Source: Scandinavium goeteborgense
GTDB lineage: Bacteria > Pseudomonadota > Gammaproteobacteria > Enterobacterales > Enterobacteriaceae
DNA length: 64,000 nt
Assembly (NCBI RefSeq): GCF_003935895.2
Contig: NZ_CP054058.1
Span: 1,860,001-1,924,000 of the forward strand
Reading direction: 5' to 3'
The notes beneath the pieces were generated by a model that was not told the origin of the DNA, did not search any database, and saw only the letters and a program-made list of their open reading frames with translations. Positions 8,009-29,277 of this stretch are shown in pieces. Both the position numbers and the translations under genes were made by a program. The first letter of the stretch is position 1. Each line of letters starts with the position of its first letter.

Positions 8009-8086
8009 GATCAACTCCTTCTTTGTTGTCTATGGTCTCACTGTAGGCGGGCAAGGTTTTGGCGTAAACGACAAAAAAGGATCACA

Positions 8087-9067
8087 TTACGCCATTTTGC
8101 GACAGTGGAAGCGCTGGCGGTATTCACCCGGCGTCAGGTGCAATTGTTTTTCAAACAGACGACGCAGGTTGATGCTGCTGCCAAATCCGGTCTGTTCGGC
8201 AATACGTTCGAGCGGATCGTTGGTTTGTTCGAGGCGCTGACGAGCCGCGGCCAGACGCGCTTCGGCCACGTAGCGGGCGGGAGACGCGCCGGTCTCACGG
8301 GTAAACACCCGGGTAAAGTTTCGCGGGCTCATGGCGGCTTTTTCTGCCAGCTTTTCCACGCACAGGTCGGCAGTAATGTTGTCGAGGATCCAGGTCAGCA
8401 GGTCGTTCATCGGGCCGTGGCCGTCGGACTGCTTCAGGTTATAGCGGCTGAACTGGAGCTGGCCGCCGGGACGGCGCAGGTACATCACCATGTCCTGAGC
8501 GATATCGCGGGCGAGCGTGAAGCCATAATCTTCTTCGACCAGCGCCAGCGTGAGGTCGAAGCCTGTGCTGACGCCGCCCGAGGTCCAGACGTGGCCGTCC
8601 TGAACATACAGCGGCCCGGCTTCGACGTTTACCTGCGGGTATTCGGCTTTCAGCGTATCGAGCAATTTCCAGTGGGTGGTGGCGCGTCTGCCGTCAAGCA
8701 ACCCGGCCTGCGCCAGCAAAAGCGCACCACCGCACACGGAGGCAACGCGTCGGGCGTGCGGAGCCGCGAGGTGCAGCCAGTCGACCACCGCGATGGATTC
8801 GAGCGGGTCTTGCCCGCGACCGGTGATGATAATGGTATCCAGCGGTTCGCGCGGGTCCAGCTCATGCAAACGGTGATCGGCCAGCAGATTTAACCCTGAC
8901 TGGCCGTGGATCACCTGATGCGGTTGAGTGGTCGCGAGCGCCACGTGATAACGAGGCTGCGCCATACCTTCCGGATGCAGGCGGTTGGCCTGCATCAGAA
9001 TGTCGGCAATACCGGCGGACTCAAACAGCATGCCGCCGTCGGGGACGATAATCAGGATTTTCTTCAT
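8087..9067 (-). CDS. GlxA-like AraC-family regulator (DJ-1/PfpI domain plus HTH)
   Basis: 326 residues. The N-terminal half (about 1-185) is a DJ-1/PfpI-like domain starting KKILIIVPDGGMLFESAGIAD, with a nucleophile-elbow-like ASVCGGALLLAQAGLL. The C-terminal half (about 225-325) is an AraC DNA-binding domain (KLAEKAAMSPRNFTRVF and ERIAEQTGFGSSINLRRLF). The start is uncertain: ATG 9067 matches the family N-terminus but has a very close AGGA; a GTG at 9088 adds seven residues. It lies between a permease and a GAPDH gene, 31 and 78 bases apart, all on the minus strand, so it may share their transcript. The effector is unknown. Confidence 0.85.
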   Translation of the reverse strand: MKKILIIVPDGGMLFESAGIADILMQANRLHPEGMAQPRYHVALATTQPHQVIHGQSGLNLLADHRLHELDPREPLDTIIITGRGQDPLESIAVVDWLHLAAPHARRVASVCGGALLLAQAGLLDGRRATTHWKLLDTLKAEYPQVNVEAGPLYVQDGHVWTSGGVSTGFDLTLALVEEDYGFTLARDIAQDMVMYLRRPGGQLQFSRYNLKQSDGHGPMNDLLTWILDNITADLCVEKLAEKAAMSPRNFTRVFTRETGASPARYVAEARLAAARQRLEQTNDPLERIAEQTGFGSSINLRRLFEKQLHLTPGEYRQRFHCRKMA

Positions 9068-9098
9068 GTCCTGAAAAGTACACCTCACACATATTAAG

Positions 9099-10469
9099 TC
9101 AAGTTGGCAGTGACGCGGCGGCTTCGCGTGGGGTCGCTTTTTTCATTGGGATAACGGCAATGATCATCGCCCCCAGCACCAGGAATCCGGCGACCATAAA
9201 GATCCCGGCGTTGAAGTTGCCGGTGACATCTTTCATCCAGCCCATCAGCAGCGGCCCGAGCGCCGCGCCGGTCATCCCGGTGGCGTTAATCACCGCAATG
9301 CCCACCGCGCGAGCGCGCAGGGAAATGTAGCGGTCCGGCGTGGTCCAGAAAATGACCATCGCCGCAAACGCGCCCGCCGACGCCATCACAATGCCGCTGA
9401 ACTGCCACAGCGGATTAGTGCTGGAGGCGGTCAGCATCCAGCCTGCGGCGGCAAACAAATACGGCAGCAGGGTGTGGAATTTACGCTCGTTCATCCGATC
9501 CGAACGCTTGCTCCACCACACCATCCCCACGATGGTGCACACCTGCGGAATGGCGCTCAGCAGGCCGATGGTCACATTGCTGCTGGTTTCGTTAAAACTG
9601 CGCAGGATAAGCGGCGTCCAGACGCTCAACGCGCTCAGAGTATTGGTCAGGCAAAAATAGGCCAGCGTGTAGAGAATGATCACCGGGGTGAACAGTTCGC
9701 GCGCCATGCTGCGCGGCGGCAACAGCGACGCACTGGCGGCCAGCTGCGTTTTTTGCAGTGCGATTTTGTCCGCTTCCAGCATCTCGTTCAGACAGGCTTT
9801 GTCGTCTTCGGTCAGCCATTTCGCCTTCGACGGACTGTCATCCAGCCAGAACCACACCACCAGTCCCAGCAGCACTGACGGGAAACCTTCCAGCAGGAAC
9901 AGCCACTGCCAGCCCTTCAGATTCAGTAGGCCGTCCATGTTCAAAATGTACCCCGAGGCCAGCGACCCGAGCGCCATGGTGACCGGCATCGCAATCATAA
10001 ACAGGGCATTGGCGCGAGCGCGATATTGCGCCGGGAACCAGTAGGTTAAATACAGCAGCAGGCCCGGCAGGAACCCGGCTTCCGCGATCCCGACCAGCAT
10101 CCGTAACACATACAGGCTGCTCGGCCCGGTAGCGAACATGGTGGCGGTAGACGCAATGCCCCAGATCACCATCAGCATCGCAATCCAGCGGCGTGCGCCG
10201 ACGATGCTCAGCATGATATTGCTCGGAATGCCGCAGATGACGTACATCACATAAAACAGGGTGGTGGCGAGGCCAAACATGGTGCTGGTCAGACCGAGAT
10301 CTTTACCCATCGTCAGCCCGGCAAAACCAATGTTGATGCGGTCGAGATAGGAGAAAACAAACAGGATAAATAAAAACACGATCAGGCGACGGAACAGCTT
10401 CTTGATAACAGCCTGTTGGCGCGGGTCCAGCGGCGGGTCCAGAGGTCGTTGTGCAGACGTATCAGTCAT
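9099..10469 (-). CDS. ACS-family MFS permease resembling 4-hydroxyphenylacetate transporter HpaX
   Basis: 456 residues, 12 predicted helices. The N-terminal block (QQAVIKKLFRRLIVFLF, SYLDRINIGFAGLTMGKDLG, YVICGIPSNIMLS) strongly resembles HpaX of the anion:cation symporter group from recall. SD GGAG lies 5 bases before the ATG. There are no hpa catabolic genes in the window. It diverges from iacR, and its closest named relative carries an aryl-acetate, so uptake of indole-3-acetate or a related aryl-acetic acid is an attractive inference. An alternative is a role with the regulator and GAPDH genes that follow it. Confidence 0.8.
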   Translation of the reverse strand: MTDTSAQRPLDPPLDPRQQAVIKKLFRRLIVFLFILFVFSYLDRINIGFAGLTMGKDLGLTSTMFGLATTLFYVMYVICGIPSNIMLSIVGARRWIAMLMVIWGIASTATMFATGPSSLYVLRMLVGIAEAGFLPGLLLYLTYWFPAQYRARANALFMIAMPVTMALGSLASGYILNMDGLLNLKGWQWLFLLEGFPSVLLGLVVWFWLDDSPSKAKWLTEDDKACLNEMLEADKIALQKTQLAASASLLPPRSMARELFTPVIILYTLAYFCLTNTLSALSVWTPLILRSFNETSSNVTIGLLSAIPQVCTIVGMVWWSKRSDRMNERKFHTLLPYLFAAAGWMLTASSTNPLWQFSGIVMASAGAFAAMVIFWTTPDRYISLRARAVGIAVINATGMTGAALGPLLMGWMKDVTGNFNAGIFMVAGFLVLGAMIIAVIPMKKATPREAAASLPT

Positions 10470-10735
10470 GAAAACTCCACATTGCGTTTATTAGTATGAG
10501 TGTGCAGGTCGGCTAAACGTATAGAAAATAGCCACTGGAAACGTCAATGTAATACGTGAAAAACGATACGTAATTGCAGGTGATATATCATTTATGAATC
10601 ATAATGCGACGGTGATCGCGCATTTTTCTTATGACCCGCTTCAAACCCGCATCCGGTGGCGGATTGACGCTATAGCCGTCACGGATTCGCAGGTATAATC
10701 GCGTTATCTGCTGCTTTTTTCTGGTAAGGAAACGC
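10470..10735. promoter_or_regulatory. Divergent region between HpaX-like permease and iacR with repeated ATACGT
   Basis: 266 bases between outward-facing genes. The hexamer ATACGT occurs at 10552-10557 and 10566-10571 and, inverted, at 10517-10522. GGCTA and TAGCC (10511-10532) form a small inverted pair around the last one. A TATAAT at 10694-10699 is a plausible -10 for iacR, without a good -35. The repeats are candidate operator parts; no known consensus is matched. Confidence 0.35.
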
Positions 10736-11209
10736 ATGAGTAACATAAAAAAAACCGCTGAGGACACAGCCGCCGATCCCGGCTTCCATCGTGAAGAATT
10801 TCCGTTCTACTGGATCGTGAATGTTTACGCGCGTTACACGCAAATCATGGAAATTACACTGAAAAAAGCGCAGCTCGATGTTTCTGGCTTCCGGGTGTTG
10901 ATGGTGACGCACCAGTACGGCAAGGCCAGCATTTCGCAGATTGCGGAATACGCGATGGCCAAAATGCCGACGGTGACTAAAATCGTCGGCCGCCTGCGTG
11001 AAGACGGTCTGGTGACCACCGCCAGTAGCGAAAGTGACGCCCGCGTAACCGAAGTGATACTCACTGAACTCGGGCGGCAAAAAGTGGAAGAAGCCTACGC
11101 CCAGGCCAGTAAAGTGTTTGAAAAAGGGTTCAAGGGCATGACCAGCAGTCAGGTCGCAAAAATGAATCTGTCGCTGTCAAAAGTGCTGGATAACCTCAAC
11201 GAACTTTGA
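10736..11209 (+). CDS. iacR: IacR, MarR-family regulator of indole-acetate catabolism
   Basis: 157 residues with a central winged helix-turn-helix of the MarR type: GFRVLMVTHQYGKASISQIAEYA, then KMPTVTKIVGRLREDGLV recognition helix and the wing residues SESDARVTEVILTELG. Long flanking helices form the dimer region. SD AAGGA lies 5 bases before the ATG. It sits directly upstream of, and on the same strand as, the iac operon, as MarR-type iacR genes do in known iac clusters. It is expected to repress the operon until indole-3-acetate or a derivative binds. It is not HpaR, whose sequence is different. Confidence 0.8.
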   Translation: MSNIKKTAEDTAADPGFHREEFPFYWIVNVYARYTQIMEITLKKAQLDVSGFRVLMVTHQYGKASISQIAEYAMAKMPTVTKIVGRLREDGLVTTASSESDARVTEVILTELGRQKVEEAYAQASKVFEKGFKGMTSSQVAKMNLSLSKVLDNLNEL

Positions 11210-11291
11210 CCCTGAACCGCGTAATGATAAATTTGTGATCCGCTTAGAAATTTCTTATAACCTCCTGTAAAACCACGTTTTTTAAAGCAAT

Positions 11292-11320
11292 GCCGTCATC
11301 TGTCCGTATGACGGCTTTCT
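11292..11320 (+). terminator. Probable terminator after iacR
   Basis: GCCGTCAT and ATGACGGC form an 8-bp stem with an 8-base loop, followed by TTTCT. The T-run is short, so ending may be partial. It separates iacR from the iacH operon. Confidence 0.6.
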
Positions 11321-11431
11321 GCCCCAACCCCGCCATTTTTGTTTTATTTTTCATCAGCCTGACGCAATAGCCTTTTACTCTTAAAGGTTAATAAATTGTT
11401 GCCTGCTGGTAAAAATAACGTGAAATATTAC

Positions 11432-11473
11432 TTGAATTTTCATCTAAATCTTCCATGATTGACCTAACGTTAG
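11432..11473 (+). promoter_or_regulatory. Candidate iacH promoter with overlapping operator palindrome
   Basis: TTGAAT (11432-11437) and CATGAT (11454-11459) are a fair -35/-10 pair with a 16-base spacer. The predicted start point, near 11466, falls inside the perfect palindrome CTAACGTTAG (11464-11473), where bound IacR would block transcription. The hexamers match the consensus only moderately and the operator role is inferred from position. Confidence 0.45.
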
Positions 11474-11541
11474 TCAGGACAAAAGGTCGCGTTGACGACT
11501 CCCCTGAATATGATTCGTTTTTTCTGGTCAAGGTGTTAATC

Positions 11542-12666
11542 ATGAAACCAGTTTCTGTGAGCAAAGGTTTTGTCGAACAGTTTATCCTCGGTGAGGGCGA
11601 GCTTCGGTTTGCAGTAAAAGACACCCTGGACGTGGCCGGTTTCCCGACCCGGGCAGGCTGTCGGGCGCTGGAAAATGCCCCGGCTGCAGAACGCCATGCC
11701 AGCGTGGTCGCCACGCTGCTGGGCAAGAACTGCGTCCTGACCGGCAAAACCACGCTGCATGAGCTGGCGTTTGGCGTGACGGGCATCAATGCCTGGAGCG
11801 GGACTCCGCTCAACACACACTTTCCTGACGTGATCCCCGGCGGCTCGTCCAGCGGTTCGGCGGCGGTGGTGGCCTCGGGCGAAGTCGATTTTTCCCTCGG
11901 CACCGACACCGGCGGCTCGGTGCGAATGCCTGCGGCCTGCTGCGGGGTTATCGGCCTCAAGCCCGGTTACGACGTCCTGAGCCGCAAAGGCGTCATGCCG
12001 GCGGAAAGCTCGCTGGACTGCGTCGGTGTATTCACCCGCGATGCGGCAGTACTGCGCCAGGCGATGACCCGACTCGGCGTGCCCGTCGACGAACCCTTGT
12101 CTGCGTTGCCGGCTTTGTCGTTCCTCTCCGTGGCTACCCCTGAAATTGATGCCTGCCTGCGGGCGTTCCTCGAGCAACATTCCGTTCAGCCACGCGATGC
12201 AGAGCTGCCGCTGTTTGCCGACGCGCACCGCGCCGGGCTGGCGATCATCAGCCGCGAAAACTGGCTGGCGCTGAATCCGTTGCTGGCAAGCGGGCAGGTC
12301 TCCACCGACGTGGCGTCCCGCATTCGTTCGGGGGCAGACGTCAGCCCAGAAGCGCTCGAGGCGGCCGAACACATTCGCCGTGATTTCAGTGTCCAGCTTG
12401 ATGCCTTACTGGCGCAAACCCCGCTGCTGGCGCTGGCGACCTTGCCGGAACTGCCGCCGACGCTGAGCGAGGCGCAGGACCCGCTGAGCGTGGTCAATCT
12501 CACCCGGCTGGTACGGCCCTTCAACCTGAGTGGACACCCGGCGCTGTCGCTGCCGGTGGGAGAACTTCACGGTCGCCCGGTGGCACTCCAGTTGGTTGCA
12601 GCCAAAGGCCACGACGGTTTTCTGGTGCAGGCCGCCGAATGGCTGACCTCGCGACGACGTCACTAA
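11542..12666 (+). CDS. iacH: IacH, amidase-signature family hydrolase
   Basis: 374 residues. The amidase-signature catalytic set is visible: Lys26 in AVKDTLD, the GGSSSGSAAVV block with the cis-Ser, and the nucleophile Ser in GTDTGGSVRMPA. It is shorter than typical 450-500-residue family members. The start at 11542 is chosen for the AAGGTG site 6 bases upstream; a frame extending to 11455 is not needed. It is the first gene of the iac operon. In known iac clusters iacH is an accessory gene not always essential for growth on indole-3-acetate; hydrolysis of an amide intermediate or an IAA conjugate is a reasonable guess. Confidence 0.85.
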   Translation: MKPVSVSKGFVEQFILGEGELRFAVKDTLDVAGFPTRAGCRALENAPAAERHASVVATLLGKNCVLTGKTTLHELAFGVTGINAWSGTPLNTHFPDVIPGGSSSGSAAVVASGEVDFSLGTDTGGSVRMPAACCGVIGLKPGYDVLSRKGVMPAESSLDCVGVFTRDAAVLRQAMTRLGVPVDEPLSALPALSFLSVATPEIDACLRAFLEQHSVQPRDAELPLFADAHRAGLAIISRENWLALNPLLASGQVSTDVASRIRSGADVSPEALEAAEHIRRDFSVQLDALLAQTPLLALATLPELPPTLSEAQDPLSVVNLTRLVRPFNLSGHPALSLPVGELHGRPVALQLVAAKGHDGFLVQAAEWLTSRRRH

Positions 12667-12770
12667 CGCCTTAATTTCGTTTTTTCATTTCCTGATGACT
12701 CAGTGAGTACGACTCATTGCGGCCTCGTGCGTCCTGAACGCGCCGCAAATAACAAAAACCGGAGGAAGCT

Positions 12771-13898
12771 ATGTCTGCCGTACTGATTCGTGAAGAGCTG
12801 GTTCCGCTGTTGAGTGACGTTGCCACTCGCAGCGCCGATTTTGAGCATCAGCGCCATATTTCTGACGACGTGATCGTCCGCTTCAAACAGGTGGGCGTGT
12901 ACCGCGCGCTGGTGCCAAAAATGTACGGCGGCGACGAATGTTCCCCGGCAGCGTTCTGCGAACTGGTCGAGCAAATCGCCACCGCCGACGGGTCGGCGGG
13001 CTGGGTCGCCAGCTTCGGCATGAGCCCGTTCTATCTCGGCGCACTGCCGCCGGACACCCTGAAAGAACTCTATCGCGACGGCCCGGACGTGGTGTTTGCC
13101 GGGGGCATTTTCCCGACGCAAAAAGCGCAGCAGGCCGACGGCGGCTATCGCGTCAGCGGCCGCTGGAGCTTCGCCAGCGGCAGCATGGGCGCGTCGGTAT
13201 TAGGCGTCGGCATTCTGCCCGACGGCGAGCAGGCGCTGCCACGCATGGCGGTACTGCCGCGTGAAAATGTGCATATCGATCCGGTGTGGGACACCGTGGG
13301 CCTCGCCGGCACCGGCAGTCATGACCTGGTGGTCAACGACGCGTTTGTGCCGCATGAATGGACCTTTATTCGTGGCGGGGCGCTGAATCTGGAAGGGCCG
13401 CTGTACCGCTATCCGGTGTTGTCGCTGGCGACCCAGGTGCTGTCCGTCGTCGCCCTCGGCGTGGCCCGCGCCGCACTGAATGAAATCTACGCCATCGCCC
13501 ATCGTCAGCAGTCCGTGACCGGCGCACCGCGTCTGGCCGACAGGCCGCAGGCGCAGATGCAAATTGCCCACTGCGAAGCTGAATTGCGCTCCGCCCGGGC
13601 CTGGTTTTACGACGCCATCGACGATGTCTGGCAGCGCCTGCTGGCGGGGGATGACGCGAGCTGCGAGCAAATTAACGCGCTGCGGCTTTCATCGACGCAC
13701 GTCACCCGCGTTTCCGCCGACGTGGCGCGTCAGGCGCTGGCCCTCAACGGCATGGGCGGCGTGACCATGACCAGCCCGCTACAGCGCTACGTGCGCGACA
13801 CGATGGTGATTACCCAACATGCCTTTATGGGCGACCTCTCGTACCTCAATGCCGGTACGGTCTTCTTTGGTGGCAAACCGCTGCCGGGTTACTTGTGA
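12771..13898 (+). CDS. iacA: IacA, flavin-dependent indole-acetate monooxygenase (acyl-CoA dehydrogenase fold)
   Basis: 375 residues with the acyl-CoA dehydrogenase/group D flavin monooxygenase fold: an N-terminal helical part with QVGVYRALVPKMYGGDE, a middle beta domain (GRWSFASGSMG, DTVGLAGTGSHDL), and C-terminal helices ending GMGGVTMTSPLQRYVRDTM. This is the group of HsaA-like oxygenases that take reduced flavin from a partner reductase. In characterised iac clusters IacA catalyses the first oxidation of indole-3-acetate, and IacG supplies reduced flavin. SD GGAGG precedes the ATG. It follows iacH by 104 bases; that gap may hold a secondary promoter, but none is clear. Confidence 0.9.
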   Translation: MSAVLIREELVPLLSDVATRSADFEHQRHISDDVIVRFKQVGVYRALVPKMYGGDECSPAAFCELVEQIATADGSAGWVASFGMSPFYLGALPPDTLKELYRDGPDVVFAGGIFPTQKAQQADGGYRVSGRWSFASGSMGASVLGVGILPDGEQALPRMAVLPRENVHIDPVWDTVGLAGTGSHDLVVNDAFVPHEWTFIRGGALNLEGPLYRYPVLSLATQVLSVVALGVARAALNEIYAIAHRQQSVTGAPRLADRPQAQMQIAHCEAELRSARAWFYDAIDDVWQRLLAGDDASCEQINALRLSSTHVTRVSADVARQALALNGMGGVTMTSPLQRYVRDTMVITQHAFMGDLSYLNAGTVFFGGKPLPGYL

Positions 13899-13917
13899 TT
13901 TTTGAAAGGAGCAACAG

Positions 13918-14277
13918 ATGAGCCAGTCAACAACCTTACGCGTGCTGTTTTGCATCGGCGTGAACCAGAACTTTTTCGATGCCAGCCCGGCGGAAGCCAA
14001 GCAGGTGTGGGGCGCATTCGGCGTGATGATGAAAGGCATTGATGAAACGCCGGGCATCACCGTCATCGGCAACATGGATGACGACCAGCTGATGGTCGGC
14101 CCGTCCACCTCCGCGCCGTGGACCACCTACGTGTTAGCCGACGCTGAGCGTCTGGAAAACGTCGCCGCGGTCTGCAACCTGTTCCGCAGCACCCCGGTCG
14201 GCGACGGCGGCAGCAAGCTGTGGAAGTACTGCAAAATCGAGGCCCGCGTTGGCCGTGAACTGATTATCCAGAACTGA
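13918..14277 (+). CDS. iacB: IacB, small protein of the iac operon
   Basis: A 119-residue soluble protein with no signal peptide or membrane segment. Notable stretches are VLFCIGVNQNFFD near the start and LWKYCKIEARVGRELI at the end. I do not see a catalytic motif that I can name. Size and position, directly after iacA with 19 bases between, match iacB of known clusters, whose precise biochemical role is less settled than those of iacA, iacE and iacCD. SD AAAGGAG lies 6 bases before the ATG. Confidence 0.8.
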   Translation: MSQSTTLRVLFCIGVNQNFFDASPAEAKQVWGAFGVMMKGIDETPGITVIGNMDDDQLMVGPSTSAPWTTYVLADAERLENVAAVCNLFRSTPVGDGGSKLWKYCKIEARVGRELIIQN

Positions 14278-14288
14278 CGGAGCTGACG

Positions 14289-14831
14289 ATGAACGCCCAG
14301 GATGCGCTGCGGTTGCAGCAGCTCGAAGACTATCAGGCGGCGCGGGTCTGTATCAGCGATTACATGCGCCTGTGTGATGTGCTCGACACCGCAGAAACGG
14401 TGCAGGCGATTGGCGCATTGTTCAGCGTGGATGCCTGCTGGGAGGGCGTCGGCGAACCTTACGCCACGCGCCTCGGGCGTCATGTGGGGCGCGAGGCCAT
14501 TGTGAAAATGATGGCGGGTTACGTACGGCAACCGGCGCATTTCGCGATGAACGCGCACTTCCTCTGTTCCGAAGCGCTGTGGCATACGGCGAACAGTGAA
14601 CTGCGCGGCCGCTGGCTGATGTTGCAAACCTCGGCGTTTACCGCAGGCGGTGCGCATCTCAACGCCGCAGAACTCAACGTGAACTTTGTGCGCGAGGCGG
14701 GCGAAATGGTGATGCGCCATTTCACCACCCGCAACCTGTTCAGCCGCCCGGTAGACCACTGGCACGCGGCGGATGCCTTACCGGTTCCTGATAAAAACAA
14801 AGACGTGCAGGAGAATGGACATGCAATGTGA
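14289..14831 (+). CDS. iacI: IacI, SnoaL-like protein of the iac operon
   Basis: 180 residues. The arrangement of an N-terminal helix with DYMRLCDVLD, a VDACWEGVG strand, GREAIVKMM, and FAMNAHFLCSEAL suggests the cone-shaped SnoaL/NTF2-like fold shared by ring-hydroxylating beta subunits and small isomerases. Order iacA-iacB-iacI-iacC matches described clusters. It starts 11 bases after iacB and overlaps the iacC start by 11 bases, so translation is probably coupled. An isomerase or hydrolase step in the conversion of oxidised indole-acetate is possible; no catalytic residues can be assigned with confidence. Confidence 0.8.
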   Translation: MNAQDALRLQQLEDYQAARVCISDYMRLCDVLDTAETVQAIGALFSVDACWEGVGEPYATRLGRHVGREAIVKMMAGYVRQPAHFAMNAHFLCSEALWHTANSELRGRWLMLQTSAFTAGGAHLNAAELNVNFVREAGEMVMRHFTTRNLFSRPVDHWHAADALPVPDKNKDVQENGHAM

Positions 14832-16134
14832 TCACACCATCAATGTGAAGAATATCGATCCCGCGACGCCACCGACGCTGACGAGTACGGAGATTGCGGC
14901 GCTGGTGAAATCTGACCGGGTACACACTTCGCTGTACACCTCGGAAGCGCTGTTCCAGCTCGAACTGGAGCGTATCTTCAGTAAAACCTGGGTGTGGGTG
15001 GCGCACGCCAGCGAAATCCCGGACACCGGCAGCTTTAAGACCACCGAAATCGGCACCCAGCCGGTGATTGTGGTGCGTGACCGCAAAGGCACGGTGCATA
15101 CCTTACTCAACCGCTGCCGCCACCGCGCCGCCACGGTGTGTGAACACCGCAGCGGCAAAACCAACAGCTTTGTCTGCCCGTATCACGGCTGGGGCTACGC
15201 CCTGGACGGCAGTCTGCGTGGCGTGCCGCACCCGGAAAGCTACGCCGATCAGCTGGAAAAAGGCGAACTGGGGCTGGTGTCATTGCGCACTGAACAATAC
15301 GCCGGGATGATTTTCGCCACCTTTAATGAGCAGATTGAACCGCTGGAAGATTTCCTCGGTGTCGCCAAAAAATGGATGGATCTGTTCATGAAGCAGGGCG
15401 CGGGATATCCGATTAAAACCGGGCCTGCGCACCGGTTCCGCTTCCCCGGCAACTGGAAGATTCAGCTCGAAAACACCACCGACGGCTATCACTTCCCGGT
15501 GGTTCACCGCTCGTTTTTAAGCTCGGTCGATAAGCAAACCGAAGAGATGCTCAACTTCGTTGACGGCAGCGGCTACGTTGAGGATTTGGGCAACGGTCAC
15601 AGCGTGATGGTGATGATCCCGGAACTGGTGGATTTAGACGCCAATCTCGACGCGCCGATCCCTGAACGCTTCGCTGAGCTGGCCGATGCGCTGCGCGCCG
15701 ATCACGACGAAGAGCAGGTCCGACGCATCGTGCGTGCGGTTGGTGGCTCCGGTTTTAACCTCAATATTTTCCCAAACATCGCCTGTTCGATGGCGTTCTT
15801 CCGCGTCTTGCAGCCAGTGTCGGTACAAGAAACCGAAATTCACCATGCGGTGATCACCATGGACGGCGGGCCGGAAATAGCCAACCAGGCGCGTCTGCGT
15901 TTGCACGAACATTTCCAGGGGCCGATGGGCTTCGGCACGCCGGATGACTCCGAGGCGTGGGAGCGCGTACAGCGCGGGGCCACCGCGGGCGATGACCTGT
16001 GGATCATGCTTAACCGCGGGCTGGCGGGGGAATATCGTACCGACGACGGGCTGCGCAGCGACGTCAGCGCCGAAACCGGGATGCGTGCCGCCTACCAGCA
16101 GTGGAAAAAATTGATGACGGAGACAGAACAATGA
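14821..16134 (+). CDS. iacC: IacC, Rieske ring-hydroxylating dioxygenase large subunit
   Basis: 437 residues. The Rieske [2Fe-2S] site is complete: CRHR in NRCRHRAATVCEH and CPYHGWGY, matching C-x-H and C-x2-H. The mononuclear iron site is marked by ENTTDGYHFPVVH. ATG 14821 is preferred because AGGAG ends 7 bases upstream; the ATG at 14815 is only 1 base away and longer readings are not needed. With IacD as small subunit and IacF as reductase it forms a three-part dioxygenase that, in studied systems, converts dioxindole-acetate-type intermediates to catechol. The start overlaps iacI. Confidence 0.92.
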   Translation: MQCDHTINVKNIDPATPPTLTSTEIAALVKSDRVHTSLYTSEALFQLELERIFSKTWVWVAHASEIPDTGSFKTTEIGTQPVIVVRDRKGTVHTLLNRCRHRAATVCEHRSGKTNSFVCPYHGWGYALDGSLRGVPHPESYADQLEKGELGLVSLRTEQYAGMIFATFNEQIEPLEDFLGVAKKWMDLFMKQGAGYPIKTGPAHRFRFPGNWKIQLENTTDGYHFPVVHRSFLSSVDKQTEEMLNFVDGSGYVEDLGNGHSVMVMIPELVDLDANLDAPIPERFAELADALRADHDEEQVRRIVRAVGGSGFNLNIFPNIACSMAFFRVLQPVSVQETEIHHAVITMDGGPEIANQARLRLHEHFQGPMGFGTPDDSEAWERVQRGATAGDDLWIMLNRGLAGEYRTDDGLRSDVSAETGMRAAYQQWKKLMTETEQ

Positions 16135-16613
16135 TGACCCCAGATTCTGCCCTGTTTACCGCGATGGCGGTGGTCAATCTTGAAGGTGATTTGCTCGACC
16201 AGGGCGAATTTACGACCTGGCTGTCGCTGTGGCAGCCGGACGGCCTGTACGTGGTGCCGATTGACCCGCAGGAAACCGATTTTAAAAACACCCTGAACTA
16301 CGCCTGTGACGATCACCACATGCGCGAAAAACGGGTGAAGCGCCTGTACAGCGGGGAGTCCATTTCCACCACGCCGCGCGCCAGAACCCTGCGCACGCTG
16401 TCGCGCTTTCGGGTACTCGACGCGAGCGACGAGCGGATTGTGGTCCGTGGGGCGCAATCCTTGTGGGAACACCGCAAAGGCCACAGTCGCCATTACGCGG
16501 CGGATATTACCTGGCAGCTGCAACGCCACGGCGAAAGCTGGCTGATTGAGCAAAAGGTTATCCGCCTGGTCAACAGCGACGATGTGCTGCACAGCATCGG
16601 CTACATCCTTTAA
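16131..16613 (+). CDS. iacD: IacD, ring-hydroxylating dioxygenase small subunit
   Basis: 160 residues, the usual size of beta subunits. Characteristic segments are the N-terminal EGDLLDQGEFTTWLSLWQPDGLYVVP, shown in parts as DLLDQGEF and WLSLWQPDGLY, then HHMREKRVKRLYSG and the TLRTLSRFRVLD strand. The start overlaps the iacC stop in an ATGA arrangement, with GGAG 8 bases before. It has no iron ligands and should support assembly of the IacC catalytic ring. Confidence 0.92.
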   Translation: MMTPDSALFTAMAVVNLEGDLLDQGEFTTWLSLWQPDGLYVVPIDPQETDFKNTLNYACDDHHMREKRVKRLYSGESISTTPRARTLRTLSRFRVLDASDERIVVRGAQSLWEHRKGHSRHYAADITWQLQRHGESWLIEQKVIRLVNSDDVLHSIGYIL

Positions 16614-16623
16614 GGAGCGCGTT

Positions 16624-17364
16624 ATGACCCAAACCGCATTAGTCACCGGCGCTGCCGCCGGGCTGGGCAACGTTATTGCTACGCATTTGCTGGCGCAAGG
16701 TTTCCAGGTGGTGATGACCGACGTGGATGCCGCCCGCGTGCAGCAGGCCGCTGACCGGATCGATAACGGGCAGGGCAAGGTGCTGGCGCTGGCGCTGGAC
16801 ATTCGTCAGCCACAGGATTTTGAGCAGGCGCTGAAGGCGACAATCGACCGCTTTGGCCGCCTCGAGGTGCTGGTCAATAACGCCGCGCTGACCCTGGCGA
16901 CGCCGGTGATGGAGATTGAGGTCGATGAGTTCGACCGGGTGATGACCACCAATCTGCGCGGCACGTTTGTCGGCTGCCAGACTCTGGGCCGCTACTTCGC
17001 CAGCCTTGGCTACGGGCGAATCATCAATCTGGCTTCACTCGCCGGGCAAAACGGCGGGACCGCCTCGGGCGCGCACTACGCGGCGTCGAAGGGCGGCATT
17101 CTGACCCTGACCAAAATATTCGCCCGCGAACTGAGCAAATCCGGCGTGACGGTCAACGCCATCGCGCCGGGCCCGATGGATTCCCCGGCAGTCCACGCCA
17201 TCGTCCCGGAAGAGAAAATGGCGGGGCTGTTGCAGATGATCCCGGTGGGCACCCTCGGCGATGCGGAGTTTGTCGCACAGGCCGTGGCGTTGCTGGCTTC
17301 ACCGCAGGCGTCGTTTGTCACCGGGGCAACCTGGGACATCAACGGCGGCCTGTTCATGCGTTGA
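16624..17364 (+). CDS. iacE: IacE, SDR-family dehydrogenase/reductase
   Basis: 246-residue classical short-chain dehydrogenase. TGAAAGLG near the start binds the nucleotide, NNAA is at about residue 86, and YAASK is the catalytic pair. The ending, GATWDINGGLFMR, is typical for the family. AAGGAGCGCGTT precedes the ATG. In work on Burkholderia-type systems IacE acts with IacA on hydroxylated or oxo-indole-acetate intermediates to give a dioxindole acid; the same role is likely here. Confidence 0.9.
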   Translation: MTQTALVTGAAAGLGNVIATHLLAQGFQVVMTDVDAARVQQAADRIDNGQGKVLALALDIRQPQDFEQALKATIDRFGRLEVLVNNAALTLATPVMEIEVDEFDRVMTTNLRGTFVGCQTLGRYFASLGYGRIINLASLAGQNGGTASGAHYAASKGGILTLTKIFARELSKSGVTVNAIAPGPMDSPAVHAIVPEEKMAGLLQMIPVGTLGDAEFVAQAVALLASPQASFVTGATWDINGGLFMR

Positions 17365-17374
17365 GGAGCAAAAC

Positions 17375-18307
17375 ATGCTGACACTTCAGGTTATCCGGCG
17401 AGAGTTGCAGGGCGAGGTGGTCCTGCTGACGCTGGCCCATGCGGACGGGATCGTGCTGCCCGCGTTCAGCGCGGGGGCGCATATCGACCTGCATCTGACC
17501 GAGGACCTTATTCGGCCTTACTCGCTATGCGGTGACCCGCAGGACCGCCAGCATTATCAGCTTGGCATTCTCAAGGACGGCAATTCGCAGGGAGGTTCGC
17601 TGGCGGTCCATGCCCTGCGCGAAGGTGACGCGATAACCGTCAGTGAACCGCGCAATCTATTTACCCTCGATGAACGTGCCGGGCATAGCCTGCTGATTGG
17701 CGGCGGGATTGGCATCACGCCGATGCTGGCGATGGCCGCCGAACTGCACGCCGCCGGACGTTCATTCACGCTGCACTACTGCGCCCGGTCACGTGGTCAA
17801 GCGGCATTCGTGGCGCAGCTGGAAAGTGCGCGCTACGCCGGGCAGGTGCATCTGCATTTCAGCGACCAGCAGCGCCTGAACCTGGACGCGGTGCTGAGCG
17901 ACGTGCCGCCGAATACGCATGTGTACGTTTGCGGCCCGACGCGGCTGATGGACGCGGTCAATGACGGGGCAAAGCGCCTCGGCTATGCGGCAGAAAACGT
18001 CCATCAGGAGTGTTTCAGCGCCGAGGTGCAAACCGGCGGCGCGGCGTTTGAAGTGGTGGCGGCAACCAGCGGGATCACCGTTCAGGTGCTGGAAGATCAG
18101 ACCATTGTCGAAGCGCTGGCGCAGGCGGGGCTGAAGGTCAACGTCTCCTGCAAGCAGGGCATTTGCGGCAGCTGCCTGACCGATGTGCTGGAGGGCGAGC
18201 CGGACCATCGCGACAGCTATCTCACTGACGAAGAAAAGGCCGACGGCGACCAGATTTTGCTGTGCTGTTCCCGGTCGAAGTGCGGCCGCCTGGTTATCGA
18301 CTTGTAA
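17375..18307 (+). CDS. iacF: IacF, reductase of the IacCD dioxygenase
   Basis: 310 residues in phthalate-dioxygenase-reductase order: an FMN/FAD-binding beta barrel (IRPYSLCGDP), an NAD-binding domain (LLIGGGIGITPMLAMA, VYVCGPTRLMDAV) and a C-terminal plant-type [2Fe-2S] ferredoxin domain with CKQGICGSCLTDV and LCCSRSK. It carries electrons from NAD(P)H to the Rieske centre of IacC. The start ATG has GAGGAG 6 bases upstream and follows iacE by 10 bases. Confidence 0.92.
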   Translation: MLTLQVIRRELQGEVVLLTLAHADGIVLPAFSAGAHIDLHLTEDLIRPYSLCGDPQDRQHYQLGILKDGNSQGGSLAVHALREGDAITVSEPRNLFTLDERAGHSLLIGGGIGITPMLAMAAELHAAGRSFTLHYCARSRGQAAFVAQLESARYAGQVHLHFSDQQRLNLDAVLSDVPPNTHVYVCGPTRLMDAVNDGAKRLGYAAENVHQECFSAEVQTGGAAFEVVAATSGITVQVLEDQTIVEALAQAGLKVNVSCKQGICGSCLTDVLEGEPDHRDSYLTDEEKADGDQILLCCSRSKCGRLVIDL

Positions 18308-18317
18308 GGAATATCCC

Positions 18318-18812
18318 ATGACTCTGCAAACTGAATTTCGTAATGCGATGGCCCAGCTGGGGAGCGCGGTGTCGGTGATCACCACCGACGGCCCGGCGGG
18401 TAAATTTGGCTTCACGGCGTCCGCCGTCTGTAGCGTGACCGACCAGCCGCCAACCCTGCTGGTGTGCATGAACCGCAACTCCTTCGCCCATGAGCACTTC
18501 AAACGCAACGGCACGCTCTGCGTGAACGTGTTATCGAGCGATCACCAGGCGCTGTCGGGCGTGTTTGCTAACGCCAGCCTGCGTTCGGAGGAACGTTTTG
18601 GGCATGACAACTGGCAGGTGTTGAGCAGCGGCGCGCCGGTACTGAGTTCGGCGGTGGCCTGCTTCGACTGCCTGATTGCCGACTGTCACGAAGTGGGCAG
18701 CCACTCGGTCTTTTACTGTCAGGTGCAGGCGATCCGCATCAGCGAGCAGCCGCGCGGGCTGGTCTATTTCAATCGTCGTTACCATGCCATCGGGCATGAC
18801 GTCGAGGCGTAA
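18318..18812 (+). CDS. iacG: IacG, flavin reductase
   Basis: A 164-residue flavin reductase of the HpaC/FRP-like split-barrel family. Typical marks are the N-terminal FRNAMAQLGSAVSVITTDG, GFTASAVCSVTDQPPTLLVCMNRNS given as ASAVCSVTDQPPTLLVC, and the C-terminal GLVYFNRRYHAIG. It should supply reduced flavin to the IacA monooxygenase. AAGGA lies before the ATG. It is the last of the iacHABICDEFG block. Confidence 0.9.
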   Translation: MTLQTEFRNAMAQLGSAVSVITTDGPAGKFGFTASAVCSVTDQPPTLLVCMNRNSFAHEHFKRNGTLCVNVLSSDHQALSGVFANASLRSEERFGHDNWQVLSSGAPVLSSAVACFDCLIADCHEVGSHSVFYCQVQAIRISEQPRGLVYFNRRYHAIGHDVEA

Positions 18813-18845
18813 ACCCACTCCTTCCGATAAAAAGGGCAACGCGTG

Positions 18846-20189
18846 ATGAGCAATGTGGCAACCGAAAATAACGTAACCGCCGGGGCCGTGCCCCAGGACG
18901 CGCAGCAGATGCGCAAACTGGTGCTGGCCTCGGTGTTGGGCAATGCACTCGAATGGTATGACTTTTTCCTGTACGGCACCGCGGCGGCGCTGGTGTTTGG
19001 CCCGCTGTTTTTCCCGGTCGGCGGCGATCCGTTACAGGGCACGCTGCTGGCGTTTTCTGGCTTTGCGGTCGGCTTTCTGGCCCGTCCGCTGGGCGGGATC
19101 GCCTTTGGGCATATTGGCGATCGCTACAGCCGCAAAATGACCCTGATCATGACCTTAACGCTGATGGGCGCGACGACGTTTGTGATTGGCCTGCTGCCGG
19201 TCTATTCGCAGGTGGGTATCTGGGCGCCGATTTCGCTGATTACGCTGCGCTTCTTGCAGGGCGTGGCCTCGGGCGGTGAATGGGGCGGCGGGGTGCTGAT
19301 GCTCAGCGAAAGCGCCCCCGCGTCACGCCGTGGTTTTTATACCGCCTGGAGCCAGATGGGCGTCTCCGGCGGCTTCGTGTTGTCGGCCTTCGCCTTTTAT
19401 CTGGTGCAGCAACTGCCGGAAGCGGATTTCATGAGTTGGGGCTGGCGCGTGCCGTTCCTGCTGAGCATCGTCATCTTTTTGGTCGGCGTGTATATCCGCA
19501 AAAACATCCGTGAGAGCAAAGCCTTTACGCAAGCCAAACCGGAAGACAAACACGAAAAAATCCCACTGATTACCTTGATGCGCGATCACCCGAAAGCGCT
19601 GTTGCAGGCCATAGCCCTGCGCCTGCCGGAAAACGGCGCATCGTATATTTTCTTCACCTTTTCGGTGGTGTACGCCAAACACATTGGCATCGGCACCGGG
19701 GAAATCATCAGCGCCGTGACGCTGGCGATGCTGGTGGAGTTTTTCTCGATTCTGTTCTGGGGCGCATTGTCGGATCGCATCGGGCTGAAGCCGGTTTATT
19801 ACATCGGTGTGATTGGCCTGTTGGTGATGGCGTTTCCGTTCTTCTGGCTGCTTTCCACCGGCAACTACGGCTGGGTGATGCTGGCGATGATGCTCGGTTT
19901 ACCGGTGTGTCACGGGGCGATGATCGGCACTCAGCCCTGCATCATGAGCGACCTGTTCCCGGTGCGGGTGCGCTATTCCGGATTGGCGCTCGGGCATGAA
20001 GTCGGGTCGATATTTTCCGGCGGCCTGGGGCCGATGCTGGCGGTGGCGCTGCTCATGGAATTTAACGCCTCCTGGCCGGTGTCGTTGCTGCTGGTGGCGT
20101 ACGCCTTACTGGCCTGGGTGGCGCTGCGCAGCCTGCCGTCGGGCCGACAAAATACCAACACAGGAGTGAATAATGAGCATCACCATTGA
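18846..20189 (+). CDS. MHS-family MFS permease in the iac operon
   Basis: 447 residues, 12 predicted helices. Helix 1 has LEWYDFFLYG, loop 2-3 has RPLGGIAFGHIGDRYSRK and the middle has GWRVPFLLS, all MHS-type signatures. It is distinct from the permease at 2287. The start may be GTG 18843 or ATG 18846; AAGGG lies 6 or 9 bases upstream. Its 3' end overlaps catB by 17 bases, which ties transport to the pathway. Import of indole-3-acetate or of catechol-pathway compounds such as cis,cis-muconate or benzoate-like acids is likely; which one cannot be told. Confidence 0.85.
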   Translation: MSNVATENNVTAGAVPQDAQQMRKLVLASVLGNALEWYDFFLYGTAAALVFGPLFFPVGGDPLQGTLLAFSGFAVGFLARPLGGIAFGHIGDRYSRKMTLIMTLTLMGATTFVIGLLPVYSQVGIWAPISLITLRFLQGVASGGEWGGGVLMLSESAPASRRGFYTAWSQMGVSGGFVLSAFAFYLVQQLPEADFMSWGWRVPFLLSIVIFLVGVYIRKNIRESKAFTQAKPEDKHEKIPLITLMRDHPKALLQAIALRLPENGASYIFFTFSVVYAKHIGIGTGEIISAVTLAMLVEFFSILFWGALSDRIGLKPVYYIGVIGLLVMAFPFFWLLSTGNYGWVMLAMMLGLPVCHGAMIGTQPCIMSDLFPVRVRYSGLALGHEVGSIFSGGLGPMLAVALLMEFNASWPVSLLLVAYALLAWVALRSLPSGRQNTNTGVNNEHHH

Positions 20190-21285
20190 GTCCATCGCTT
20201 GCTGGCTGGTGGATATCCCGACCATTCGCCCGCATAAGCTGTCGATGACCACCATGGGCTGTCAGACCCTGACCATCGTGCGCATGACCTGCGCGCAGGG
20301 CGTGGGCTGGGGCGAAGCCACCACCATCGGCGGCTTAAGTTACGGCTCAGAAAGCCCGGAGTCGATTAAGTCAGCGATTGAAACCTATCTCTCGCCGTTG
20401 CTGTGTGGGCAGACGTTCAGCGGTGTGGCCGCGCTCGCCGCGAAAATGAACGCCAGCGTGAAGGGCAATACCTTTGCGAAATCGGCCCTAGAAACCGCGT
20501 TCCTCGACGTGCAGGGGAAAATGCTCGGCCTGCCGGTCAGTGCGCTGCTCGGCGGGGCATTAACCGAACGTCAGCCGGTGCTGTGGACGCTGGCGAGCGG
20601 CGATACCGAAAAGGATATCGACGAGGGCAAGCGCCTGCTGGCGGAAGGGCGGCACGATACCTTCAAACTCAAAGTTGGTGCCCGCGAGCTGAAAACCGAT
20701 ATCCGCCACGCACTGGCGATTAAAGCCGCTCTCGGCGATGAGGTCAGCATTCGGGTCGACGTCAATCAGGCGTGGGACGTGACCACCGCCATCAAAGGCA
20801 TGACCGAACTGCAGGCGGGCGGCATCGACCTGGTCGAACAGCCGATCCCGCTGTGGGATCAACGCGGATTAATCACGCTCAGCCAGCGTTTTGCCGTGCC
20901 GATCCTGGCCGATGAAGCGGTGGCGACGGCACATGACGGCTACGCCCTGGCGAGCGGCGGTTTCACTGGCGCGTACGCGTTGAAAATCGCCAAAGCGGGC
21001 GGACCTGTGCAGGCGCTGAAACTGGCGCAGGTCGCACAGGCAGCCGGAGTGGCGCTGTACGGCGGCACCATGCTCGAAGGCACCCTCGGCACCGTGGCCT
21101 CTTTACACGCCTGGTCGACGATAAACATGCAGTGGGGCACCGAGATGTTCGGCCCGCTGCTGCTGAAAGACGACATCGTGGTGCGCCCGCTCGATTTCAG
21201 TCACGGACAGGTCACGCTGCCGCAGGGCCCCGGCCTGGGTGTGGATATCGACCCCGACAAACTTCGTCATTACGCCAGAACATAA
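20173..21285 (+). CDS. catB: CatB, muconate cycloisomerase
   Basis: 370 residues of the enolase superfamily, MLE group. The catalytic lysine pair is in FKLKVG, the metal ligands follow in RVDVNQAW (Asp), LVEQPI (Glu) and LADEAV (Asp), and a C-terminal acid is in GTMLEGTLG. It converts cis,cis-muconate made by CatA to muconolactone. The start overlaps the permease end. A GGAG site lies within the permease 3' end. The gene order catB-catC-catA is compact, though catA has its own longer leader. Confidence 0.93.
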   Translation: MSITIESIACWLVDIPTIRPHKLSMTTMGCQTLTIVRMTCAQGVGWGEATTIGGLSYGSESPESIKSAIETYLSPLLCGQTFSGVAALAAKMNASVKGNTFAKSALETAFLDVQGKMLGLPVSALLGGALTERQPVLWTLASGDTEKDIDEGKRLLAEGRHDTFKLKVGARELKTDIRHALAIKAALGDEVSIRVDVNQAWDVTTAIKGMTELQAGGIDLVEQPIPLWDQRGLITLSQRFAVPILADEAVATAHDGYALASGGFTGAYALKIAKAGGPVQALKLAQVAQAAGVALYGGTMLEGTLGTVASLHAWSTINMQWGTEMFGPLLLKDDIVVRPLDFSHGQVTLPQGPGLGVDIDPDKLRHYART

Positions 21286-21296
21286 AGGACATCAGC

Positions 21297-21584
21297 ATGC
21301 TTTTTAAAGTTGAAATGCAGGTCAACATTCCGTCGTCGTTACCGAAAGCGCAGGCGGATGAAATCAAAGCCAAAGAGAAAGCCTATTCACAGCAATTGCA
21401 GCGCGACGGTAAGTGGCCGCACATCTGGCGCGTGGTGGGTCAGTACGCCAACGTCAGCATTTTTGACGTGGCGGACAACCAGGAGCTGCACACCCTTTTA
21501 ACGGCGCTGCCGCTCTATCCGTACATGGAGATCAGCGTGCAGCCGCTGTGTGAACACCCGTCGTCAATTCATAACGAGCAGTAA
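21297..21584 (+). CDS. catC: CatC, muconolactone isomerase
   Basis: A 95-residue protein beginning MLFKVEMQVNIPSSL, typical for the small decameric muconolactone delta-isomerases (92-96 residues). Conserved pieces are EKAYSQQLQRDGKWPHIWRV and LYPYMEISVQPL. It makes 3-oxoadipate enol-lactone. The ATG at 21297 is used; a longer frame from 21132 is only the catB gene in another frame. Confidence 0.93.
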   Translation: MLFKVEMQVNIPSSLPKAQADEIKAKEKAYSQQLQRDGKWPHIWRVVGQYANVSIFDVADNQELHTLLTALPLYPYMEISVQPLCEHPSSIHNEQ

Positions 21585-21627
21585 TTACATAACGAAAACA
21601 ACCCTTACCCTACAAGAGGAAGTTGCA

Positions 21628-22554
21628 ATGTCAGTCAATCCGGCAAAACAAACAGAACTGGAAACGTTACTCGCCATCAGCAGCGGCTTAAATTCAGCGC
21701 AGGGCAGCGAGCGGTTTAAAGCCATCATGCATCAGGTGCTCGGCGACCTGTGTCAGACCATCAAAAAGTTCGATATCACCGATGAAGAGTTCTGGCTGGC
21801 GGTGAACTATCTCAACGAACTGGGGGAGCGCAAAGAGGCGGCGCTGTTGGCGGCGGGCCTGGGACTGGAACATTATCTGGATATGCGTGCCGATGAAAAA
21901 GAGGCCGCCTCCGGGAATGAAACCGGTACGCCTCGTACCATCGAAGGGCCGCTGTACGTGGCCAATGCGCCGCTGAGCAAGGGTTTTGCGCGCATGGATG
22001 ACGGCAGTGAAAAAGCCGAAGCCATGTGGCTGCACGGGCAGGTGACCGATATTAATGGCCAGCCGGTGGCGGGCGCGGTGGTCGATATCTGGCATGCCAA
22101 CACGATGGGTGGATACTCGTTCTTCGACCCGTCGCAAAGCGAATACAACTTACGCCGCCGGGTCGAAACCGGGGCTGACGGGCGCTATGCGGTACGCAGC
22201 ATTGTGCCGTGCGGCTATGGTTGTCCGCCGGATGGCCCGACGCAAAAACTGCTGAACGGATTAGGCCGTCACGGCAATCGCCCGGCGCACGTGCATTTCT
22301 TCGTGTCCGCCCCGGGCTTTAAGCATCTGACCACGCAGATCAACCTCAGTGGGGATGAATATTTGTGGGATGACTTTGCCTTTGCGACCCGCGAAGAGTT
22401 GATTGCCGATCCGGTCAACATCACCGACCCAAGTCTGGCGCAGCAGCGCGATATTCCCGCCCCGCATACCGAAGTGAGTTTTGATTTCTCGCTGGTGGCG
22501 ACCCATGAAAGCAGCGAAGAGGAAAGGGTGAAACGTGCGCGCGTGAAGGAATAA
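21628..22554 (+). CDS. catA: CatA, intradiol catechol 1,2-dioxygenase
   Basis: 308 residues. An N-terminal helical dimer domain is followed by the intradiol domain with GPLYVANAPL (first Tyr ligand), DIWHANTMGGYS, IVPCGYGCPPDGP (second Tyr ligand) and RPAHVHFF (two His ligands) for non-haem Fe(III). It cleaves catechol from IacCDF to cis,cis-muconate. AAGAGGAAG lies just before the ATG, 43 bases after catC. It is the last gene of the operon. Confidence 0.95.
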   Translation: MSVNPAKQTELETLLAISSGLNSAQGSERFKAIMHQVLGDLCQTIKKFDITDEEFWLAVNYLNELGERKEAALLAAGLGLEHYLDMRADEKEAASGNETGTPRTIEGPLYVANAPLSKGFARMDDGSEKAEAMWLHGQVTDINGQPVAGAVVDIWHANTMGGYSFFDPSQSEYNLRRRVETGADGRYAVRSIVPCGYGCPPDGPTQKLLNGLGRHGNRPAHVHFFVSAPGFKHLTTQINLSGDEYLWDDFAFATREELIADPVNITDPSLAQQRDIPAPHTEVSFDFSLVATHESSEEERVKRARVKE

Positions 22555-27473: not shown

Positions 27474-27511
27474 CTGTCAGGACTTTTCATCCATGTAACT
27501 GAGGTTAACCC

Positions 27512-29197: not shown

Positions 29198-29277
29198 TGC
29201 AGTTTCGTCAAAATGGTCGCCAGCCCTGAGCAACGCGGGCTGGCAGGTTAATCTGTCAATGATTCAGGAGTAGTGAC

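Follow-up and report, generated by a model that had tools for sequence, protein, structure and literature searches.

The window analyzed here comprises 64,000 nucleotides of the Scandinavium goeteborgense genome (NCBI RefSeq assembly GCF_003935895.2, contig NZ_CP054058.1, positions 1,860,001 to 1,924,000 of the forward strand) and contains, at window positions 10736-22554, 14 genes with intact open frames on the + strand, namely iacR, the indole-3-acetate (IAA) genes iacHABICDEFG, a gene for an MHS-type permease, and catB, catC and catA (Table 1). Gene names, gene order and pathway had been proposed in an earlier reading made from the sequence alone (the sequence-only reading), and the frames together with matches to Pfam and NCBIfam profiles, the latter scored against curated cut-offs, proved them right; all locus proteins except IacB, which matched no family, belong to the expected families. 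The same reading had named two different end points, of which 3-oxoadipate enol-lactone stands, whereas muconolactone, given in its title, does not, since catC is present and carries the route one step further.

Table 1 Features of the iac-cat locus and its divergent upstream neighbor (window positions).
Feature	Position	Strand	Evidence
HpaX-type permease gene, divergent from iacR	9099..10469	-	TIGR02332 above cut-off, only such match in genome
iacR, MarR-family repressor	10736..11209	+	PDB 7l19 match over all 157 residues; 91.1% identity to E. soli IacR
inverted repeat after iacR, possible terminator between iacR and iacH	11289..11318	+	arms 11 nt, 91% complementary, loop 8 nt; function inferred
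operator-like site TTACTTGAATTTTCATCT, likely IacR site	11428..11445	+	conservation in enterobacterial loci
iacH, amidase-signature enzyme, 374 aa	11542..12666	+	Pfam Amidase 207.6 bits (scored on longer frame from 11455)
iacA, flavin-dependent IAA monooxygenase, acyl-CoA-dehydrogenase-like	12771..13898	+	94% to E. soli, 98% to Citrobacter sp. 18056
iacB, small protein	13918..14277	+	no family match; 69% to K. variicola protein annotated 'IacB protein'
iacI, SnoaL-like protein	14289..14831	+	Pfam SnoaL_4
iacC, Rieske dioxygenase alpha subunit	14815..16134 (start 14815 or 14821)	+	Pfam Rieske, Ring_hydroxyl_A
iacD, dioxygenase beta subunit	16131..16613 (start 16101 or about 16131)	+	Pfam Ring_hydroxyl_B
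iacE, SDR dehydrogenase	16624..17364	+	Pfam family match
iacF, 2Fe-2S ferredoxin reductase	17372..18307	+	Pfam family match
iacG, flavin reductase	18318..18812	+	Pfam Flavin_Reduct
MHS-type metabolite/H+ symporter gene, counterpart of LF7 'mfs'	18846..20189	+	TIGR00883 385.6 bits, cut-off 443.45; 90% to E. soli
catB, muconate cycloisomerase	20173..21285	+	TIGR02534 470.8 bits, cut-off 334.95
catC, muconolactone isomerase	21297..21584	+	TIGR03221 155.2 bits, cut-off 130.6
catA, catechol 1,2-dioxygenase	21628..22554	+	TIGR02439 437 bits, cut-off 392

Motifs that we take to be those of Rieske and mononuclear-iron centers were found in IacC, and what are presumably the motifs of short-chain dehydrogenases/reductases (SDR) in IacE. 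About 332 bp separate iacR from iacH and 104 bp separate iacH from iacA; from iacA through catC the genes overlap or leave gaps of at most about 33 bp, and 43 bp precede catA. The starts of iacC, iacD, iacG, catC and catA were moved by a few codons, the revised starts being ATG. For iacH the start is very likely 11542 and not 11455, since relatives share a conserved block at about 11428-11460, and the resulting 374 residues equal the length given for Pseudomonas putida IacH (PMC11373566).

The two subunits of a ring-hydroxylating dioxygenase by which an iac locus is recognized, IacC (Rieske alpha) and IacD (beta), are encoded side by side at 14815-16613, and all three genes described as markers of iac loci, iacA, iacB and iacI (PMC9613470), are present. 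The regulator falls into the IacR group of MarR proteins, its two best PDB matches being 7l19, the chain of which reads identically to the IacR of Enterobacter soli (L019), and 7kua, the IacR of P. putida. Rieske CD genes and MarR regulators are common to iad-type loci as well, which take IAA to anthranilate, but the three markers disfavor such an assignment to the point that we regard it as barely credible; no genes of the iadA/iadB (iorB/iotA) type were found among the 14 locus genes, to which the search was confined, leaving the rest of the genome unsearched.

Comparison with E. soli LF7 (ATCC BAA-2102; L019, L122), for which an IacR-controlled and IAA-upregulated cluster iacHABICDEFG-mfs-pcaIJD-catBCA has been reported (PMC8383072, citing Greenhut 2018), revealed the same regulator, gene order, permease and catBCA genes, and the upstream hpaX-, ftrA- and gap-like neighbors are shared as well. 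Each of the ten iac proteins has 77-96% identity to its E. soli ATCC BAA-2102 counterpart, with the order unchanged; the likeness is therefore far beyond chance, and a chance adjacency of the genes, whose order is kept in relatives, was rejected. While the window follows the LF7-type order iacR-iacHABICDEFG-mfs ... catBCA, it differs in the segment between permease and catB, where LF7 carries pcaIJD; here, catB overlaps the permease gene, and pcaIJ and pcaD lie elsewhere. Conversely, a genome search of E. soli revealed no copy of pcaI or pcaD outside the iac tail, whereas the window genome has a stand-alone pca cluster.

This cluster was found in the genome of 4,713,964 bases (two contigs) at G000:C2:2098835-2103498, about 0.2 Mb from the window operon, where pcaI, pcaF and pcaD lie together. 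The gene order is pcaI-pcaJ-pcaF-pcaB-pcaD followed by a frame of 126 residues, with a divergent regulator of the PcaR/PcaU/PobR family, and the named pca genes and the regulator all score above cut-off. The 126-residue frame stands at the place of pcaC and gave no family match at E <= 1e-60, so that its naming as pcaC would be a guess. The sequence-only reading had proposed to look for pcaD, pcaIJ and pcaF in the rest of the genome and had counted the lack of any 3-oxoadipate route as a refutation; as all these genes are present above cut-off, this ground for refutation falls away, and a missing lower pathway was rejected. The catechol branch of the beta-ketoadipate pathway (catA, catB, catC, pcaD, pcaIJ and pcaF, all above cut-off) is complete in the genome. 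The operon catA is the only match above the family cut-off in the genome; a second catA that would make the operon copy redundant was rejected, the two other family matches being partial and low-scoring (53.3 and 27.9 bits). At 2395557 another thiolase passes the pcaF cut-off; its neighboring frame shares 94% identity with a PaaK of Leclercia (L107), and the thiolase itself is probably PaaJ. From this comparison of genes and genomes we conclude, with a probability of about 0.92, that the window carries an iac-cat operon of the E. soli LF7 type for the use of IAA as food, the last steps of which would be provided by the separate PcaR-linked pca cluster.

How this operon may be controlled is indicated by the interval between iacR and iacH, which contains a conserved block, TTACTTGAANNTTCA, kept even in divergent Raoultella/Klebsiella-type loci, four of which, when aligned, show it as the full palindrome ACTTGAANTTTCAAGT. 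The operator-like site was searched for in 27 enterobacterial sequences (the window, L013, L014 and L018-L041) and 56 other loci. Exactly one copy occurs in 26 of the 27 (the remaining one, L021, is without the region), 113-149 bp before iacH wherever iacH was mapped and 114 bp in the window, and the site was found in 3 of the 56 non-enterobacterial loci. Within the window, the single exact match lies before iacH, with no exact copy deeper in the operon. At 3 mismatches, 4 matches were obtained in the window, no more than expected by chance, and hence the case for an operator is one of conservation and not of rarity. MarR proteins usually bind palindromes of 16-20 bp (PMC10458429), IacR represses the iac genes in LF7 (PMC9613470), and the site at 11428-11445 is likely the IacR operator. 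It overlaps a weak -35/-10 pair (TTGAAT at 11432-11437 and CATGAT at 11454-11459, hexamers read by eye). Around the pca cluster, no IacR-type site with at most 2 mismatches was found in the 18 kb examined.

The short gaps and the one conserved operator-like site before iacH, with no exact copy further in, make it plausible that the genes from iacH to catA are transcribed as one unit. Alternatively, iac and cat could be separate transcription units that share a neighborhood, with cat answering to catechol or muconate through its own promoter, as is conceivable from the catR that accompanies catBCA in P. putida 1290 (PMC6624763) and from the 43 bp before catA and the 104 bp before iacA. However, the stretch from iacG to catA is free of regulator genes, the permease gene and catB overlap, each locus has a single operator-like motif, placed before iacH, and the whole LF7 cluster is reported to be IacR-controlled (PMC8383072), which renders separate units unlikely. 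A point against the single transcript is that terminator-like hairpins are more numerous than in shuffled sequences (21 vs 12.8); those listed on the + strand of the operon are located within genes, and their T tails are poor.

According to the mechanism we propose for the LF7-type operon, IacR bound at 11428-11445 would block the promoter before iacH until released by IAA, allowing one transcript to run from iacH to catA. The permease would import IAA or an intermediate, IacA with IacG would oxidize IAA, IacE would form dioxindole-3-acetate, and IacCD with IacF, perhaps together with IacB, IacI and IacH, would lead on to catechol, which CatA, CatB and CatC would convert to 3-oxoadipate enol-lactone. 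The pathway would then be finished by pcaD, pcaIJ and pcaF of the separate PcaR-linked chromosomal cluster, such that the window lineage would rely on stand-alone pca genes where LF7 carries pcaIJD in the iac operon. The reactions of IacA and IacE have been described (PMC7225977, PMC9613470). Several points weigh against this picture: the steps from dioxindole-3-acetate to catechol are, according to PMC9613470, not chemically resolved; the permease scores under the cut-off of its model, TIGR00883; a second promoter could lie in the 104 bp ahead of iacA; and a sigma-70 consensus scan remained at chance level (4 sites, shuffle mean 3.8), the weak promoter proposed for iacH not being among the sites. 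The substrate, too, could be another indolic or aryl compound, for example indole-3-propionate or an IAA conjugate cut by IacH: IacA and IacE of Caballeronia glathei accept several indole derivatives (PMC7225977), IacH is of the amidase type without an assigned role, and an HpaX-type permease gene adjoins iacR. This is nevertheless an even less likely explanation than that of separate units, as IAA conversion by LF7, a close relative, depends on iacA (cited in PMC9613470) and the crystallized IacR of this strain, LF7 being ATCC BAA-2102, is described as IAA-binding (PMC9613470). Among solved structures, IacH matched amidases, with no substrate indicated.

To place the operon among its relatives, genome contigs were searched with IacA, which returned at least 522 relatives; the best 80 examined comprise 24 loci from Enterobacteriaceae (L018-L041) and 56 non-enterobacterial ones. 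The window proteins served as tblastn queries to map gene order, and tails beyond the 10 kb flank were read from further stretches. The closest locus among the matches listed is that of Citrobacter sp. 18056 (IacA 98%), although records very near the window may be left out. Together with the window genome, the enterobacterial relatives form a set of 25 genomes, mostly drafts, in which five types of tail follow the permease: pcaIJD-catBCA in seven (type a: E. soli, E. wuhouensis, Pseudenterobacter timonensis, three Leclercia and Silvania confinis), catBCA in nine (type b: the window genome, Citrobacter sp. 18056, Enterobacter sp. CC120223-11 and six Kluyvera), catB-catA in three, all Buttiauxella (type c), catA in two, both Pseudocitrobacter (type d), and no cat genes in four (type e: Shimwellia, Enterobacter sp. 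JUb54 and two Raoultella). The public records of two loci (L022 and L036) seem to contain frameshifts, and that of L021 begins inside the locus at iacA. A catB match of more than 40% identity was present in the fetched stretch of 9 of the 56 non-enterobacterial loci (L042, L046, L064, L070, L073, L074, L077, L078 and L082), a 28% match in L063 not being counted.

The sequence-only reading had implied that the joining of iac and cat genes is new, a view we cannot support, as the LF7 layout is published and catBCA is found in the tail of 16 of the 25 genomes. P. putida 1290 has the same enzymes with cat beside iac, but in a different order (iacABCDEFG-R-HI), the cat genes adjoining upstream with their own catR as catR-catBCA (PMC6624763); this study and two others (PMC11676955, PMC7225977) cover neighboring cat and iac genes in P. 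putida 1290, Paraburkholderia and Acinetobacter baumannii. Judging by its locus tags, Marinomonas sp. NFXS50 has iac and cat far apart (PMC11373566). The loci of Kluyvera and Enterobacter sp. CC120223-11 (L022, L024-L027, L041 and L040) have the window's order iacR-iacHABICDEFG-permease-catBCA without pcaIJD and with no difference in gene order, their iac proteins being 72-95% identical to those of the window. Thus, the joining of cat to iac is already known, and the window operon belongs to a known type, shortened in the same way as in Kluyvera. The same catBCA order also occurs in Enterobacteriaceae in operons beside benA/benD-like genes (L112-L116, L118-L121; the ben names are inferred), which are 29-34% identical to iacC and iacE, the catA there being 65-68% identical to that of the window.

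Comparison of the tails with the rest of each genome revealed a further regularity. In each of the 24 relatives, a single pcaD (E <= 1e-60) and a single pcaI of the top score class (357.9-391.3 bits) were found. In the seven type-a genomes both sit in the iac tail (L122-L128); in the other 17 relatives and in the window genome they lie outside it, about 2.6-4 kb apart, with Kluyvera ascorbata having them on two contigs. All 7 genomes that have no separate pca cluster carry pcaIJD in the tail, as against none of the 18 that have one (Fisher p 2e-6, kinship not corrected; at least two changes on the iac tree). Where the cat tail is incomplete or absent, a complete catBCA is found elsewhere (9 of 9 genomes, L112-L120), and where it is full, 15 of 16 genomes have no other catA (E <= 1e-80 in relatives), the exception being Kluyvera sichuanensis (L121), which has both. 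Gaps in draft assemblies could account for a copy that seems missing; two loci of type a that are chromosome records by title (L032, L036) fit the rule. A second match to the pcaI family in 6 of the 24 genomes (211.9-256.8 bits, family cut-off 128.5), all of types b, c and e, weighs against a strict rule, although we take these matches for another CoA-transferase. The type-a genomes have one pcaF-family thiolase each (E <= 1e-150), and the five read (L106-L110) each adjoin a PaaK-like frame, profile-verified for L107, so that PaaJ may do the last step there. We consider it somewhat probable that the tail of the enterobacterial iac operon complements its host, keeping after a constant core only the beta-ketoadipate genes not supplied elsewhere on the chromosome (pcaIJD-catBCA, catBCA, catB-catA, catA or none). 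The length of the operon would then reflect which other aromatic pathways the host has, and the final steps would come under the control of IacR or PcaR accordingly. No report of such complementation was found in the literature searched (listings and abstract openings), and the main LF7 paper, Greenhut et al. 2018, may mention it.

In E. soli, pcaI and pcaJ of the tail share 89-91% identity with their counterparts in Leclercia sp. 29361 and Silvania, much as iacA, iacC and the permease do (87-93%), whereas the tail copies of E. soli and Leclercia are 70-73% identical to the stand-alone pcaI and pcaJ of the window genome, which suggests one old pcaIJD tail rather than two gains; the tail pcaD is less alike (69-70%). 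As two deep branches of the iac tree are weakly supported (0.20 and 0.79), the tail may have changed in either direction, by loss or by gain of pcaIJD. Outside the set of 25, four further iacA genomes from the family sample described below (G011, G273, G017 and G027) all have a complete catBCA elsewhere, with no cat or pca genes behind iac in the stretch examined; in G011 and G273, pcaI, pcaJ, pcaF and pcaD adjoin the separate catBCA. G017 and G027 (L133, L135) show a second, rearranged enterobacterial iac locus, iacD-iacE-iacF-permease-iacA-iacB-iacG, with iacA 59-60% identical and no match to iacH, iacI, iacC or iacR in the stretch examined. Another joining of pca and cat was seen in the Shimwellia genome (L117) and in G011 (L130), where pcaIJ-pcaF-pcaD-catBCA form one cluster beside Rieske genes, apart from iac.

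In a family sample of 295 Enterobacteriaceae genomes, iacA (E <= 1e-60) was found in 14 and catA (over cut-off) in 26, the latter in 14 of 14 genomes with iacA and 12 of 281 without (p 3e-17, kinship not corrected); in 7 of the 14, catA and iacA are at most 10 kb apart. Among congeners of the window genome, G177 has an IacA of 98% identity, and in two further members of the genus no IacA was found at E <= 1e-60. Outside the set of 25, iac genes also occur on plasmids: a Klebsiella variicola plasmid typed as conjugative (L013) carries a complete iacR-iacHABICDEFG at 7911-16089, with no cat or permease match in the 21 kb examined, and a K. aerogenes record from the plasmid collection carries iac and the permease, several iac frames being broken as annotated. 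A Delftia IncP plasmid with an IS1071 transposase (L015, 9965-13084) has iacA-, iacE-, iacF- and iacG-like genes without iacC/iacD matches, and judging by these matches is a partial iac set.

As for the neighbors of the operon, the HpaX-type gene adjoins iac in 19 of the 24 related loci, one of the five misses being L021, whose record starts inside the locus. Its product is a fair candidate for an IAA importer, with which the locus has two permeases. It is in turn adjoined by an extra GAPDH-type gene and an FtrA-like regulator gene (6998-9088), likewise in L018, L019, L020, L023 and L040. On the other side, a gene for a YdeP-like oxidoreductase of the FdhF family (22597-24885) is convergent with catA, the same neighbor being found in L018 and L040. 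Further downstream, two tandem aspartate-alanine antiporter genes, the first barely at cut-off, and an aspartate 4-decarboxylase gene (25773-30942) form an apparent aspartate decarboxylation system.

Overall, the operon points to one more enterobacterium that can be expected to feed on auxin, an ability that alters root growth in plant microbiomes. A regulatory difference is predicted from its layout: in LF7 the lower pathway would be switched on with the iac genes, whereas here it should follow via the separate pca cluster. The enterobacterial loci would offer a natural series of one core operon with five tails, each fitting the gaps of its host, of how a peripheral pathway may be welded to, or cut from, a central one.

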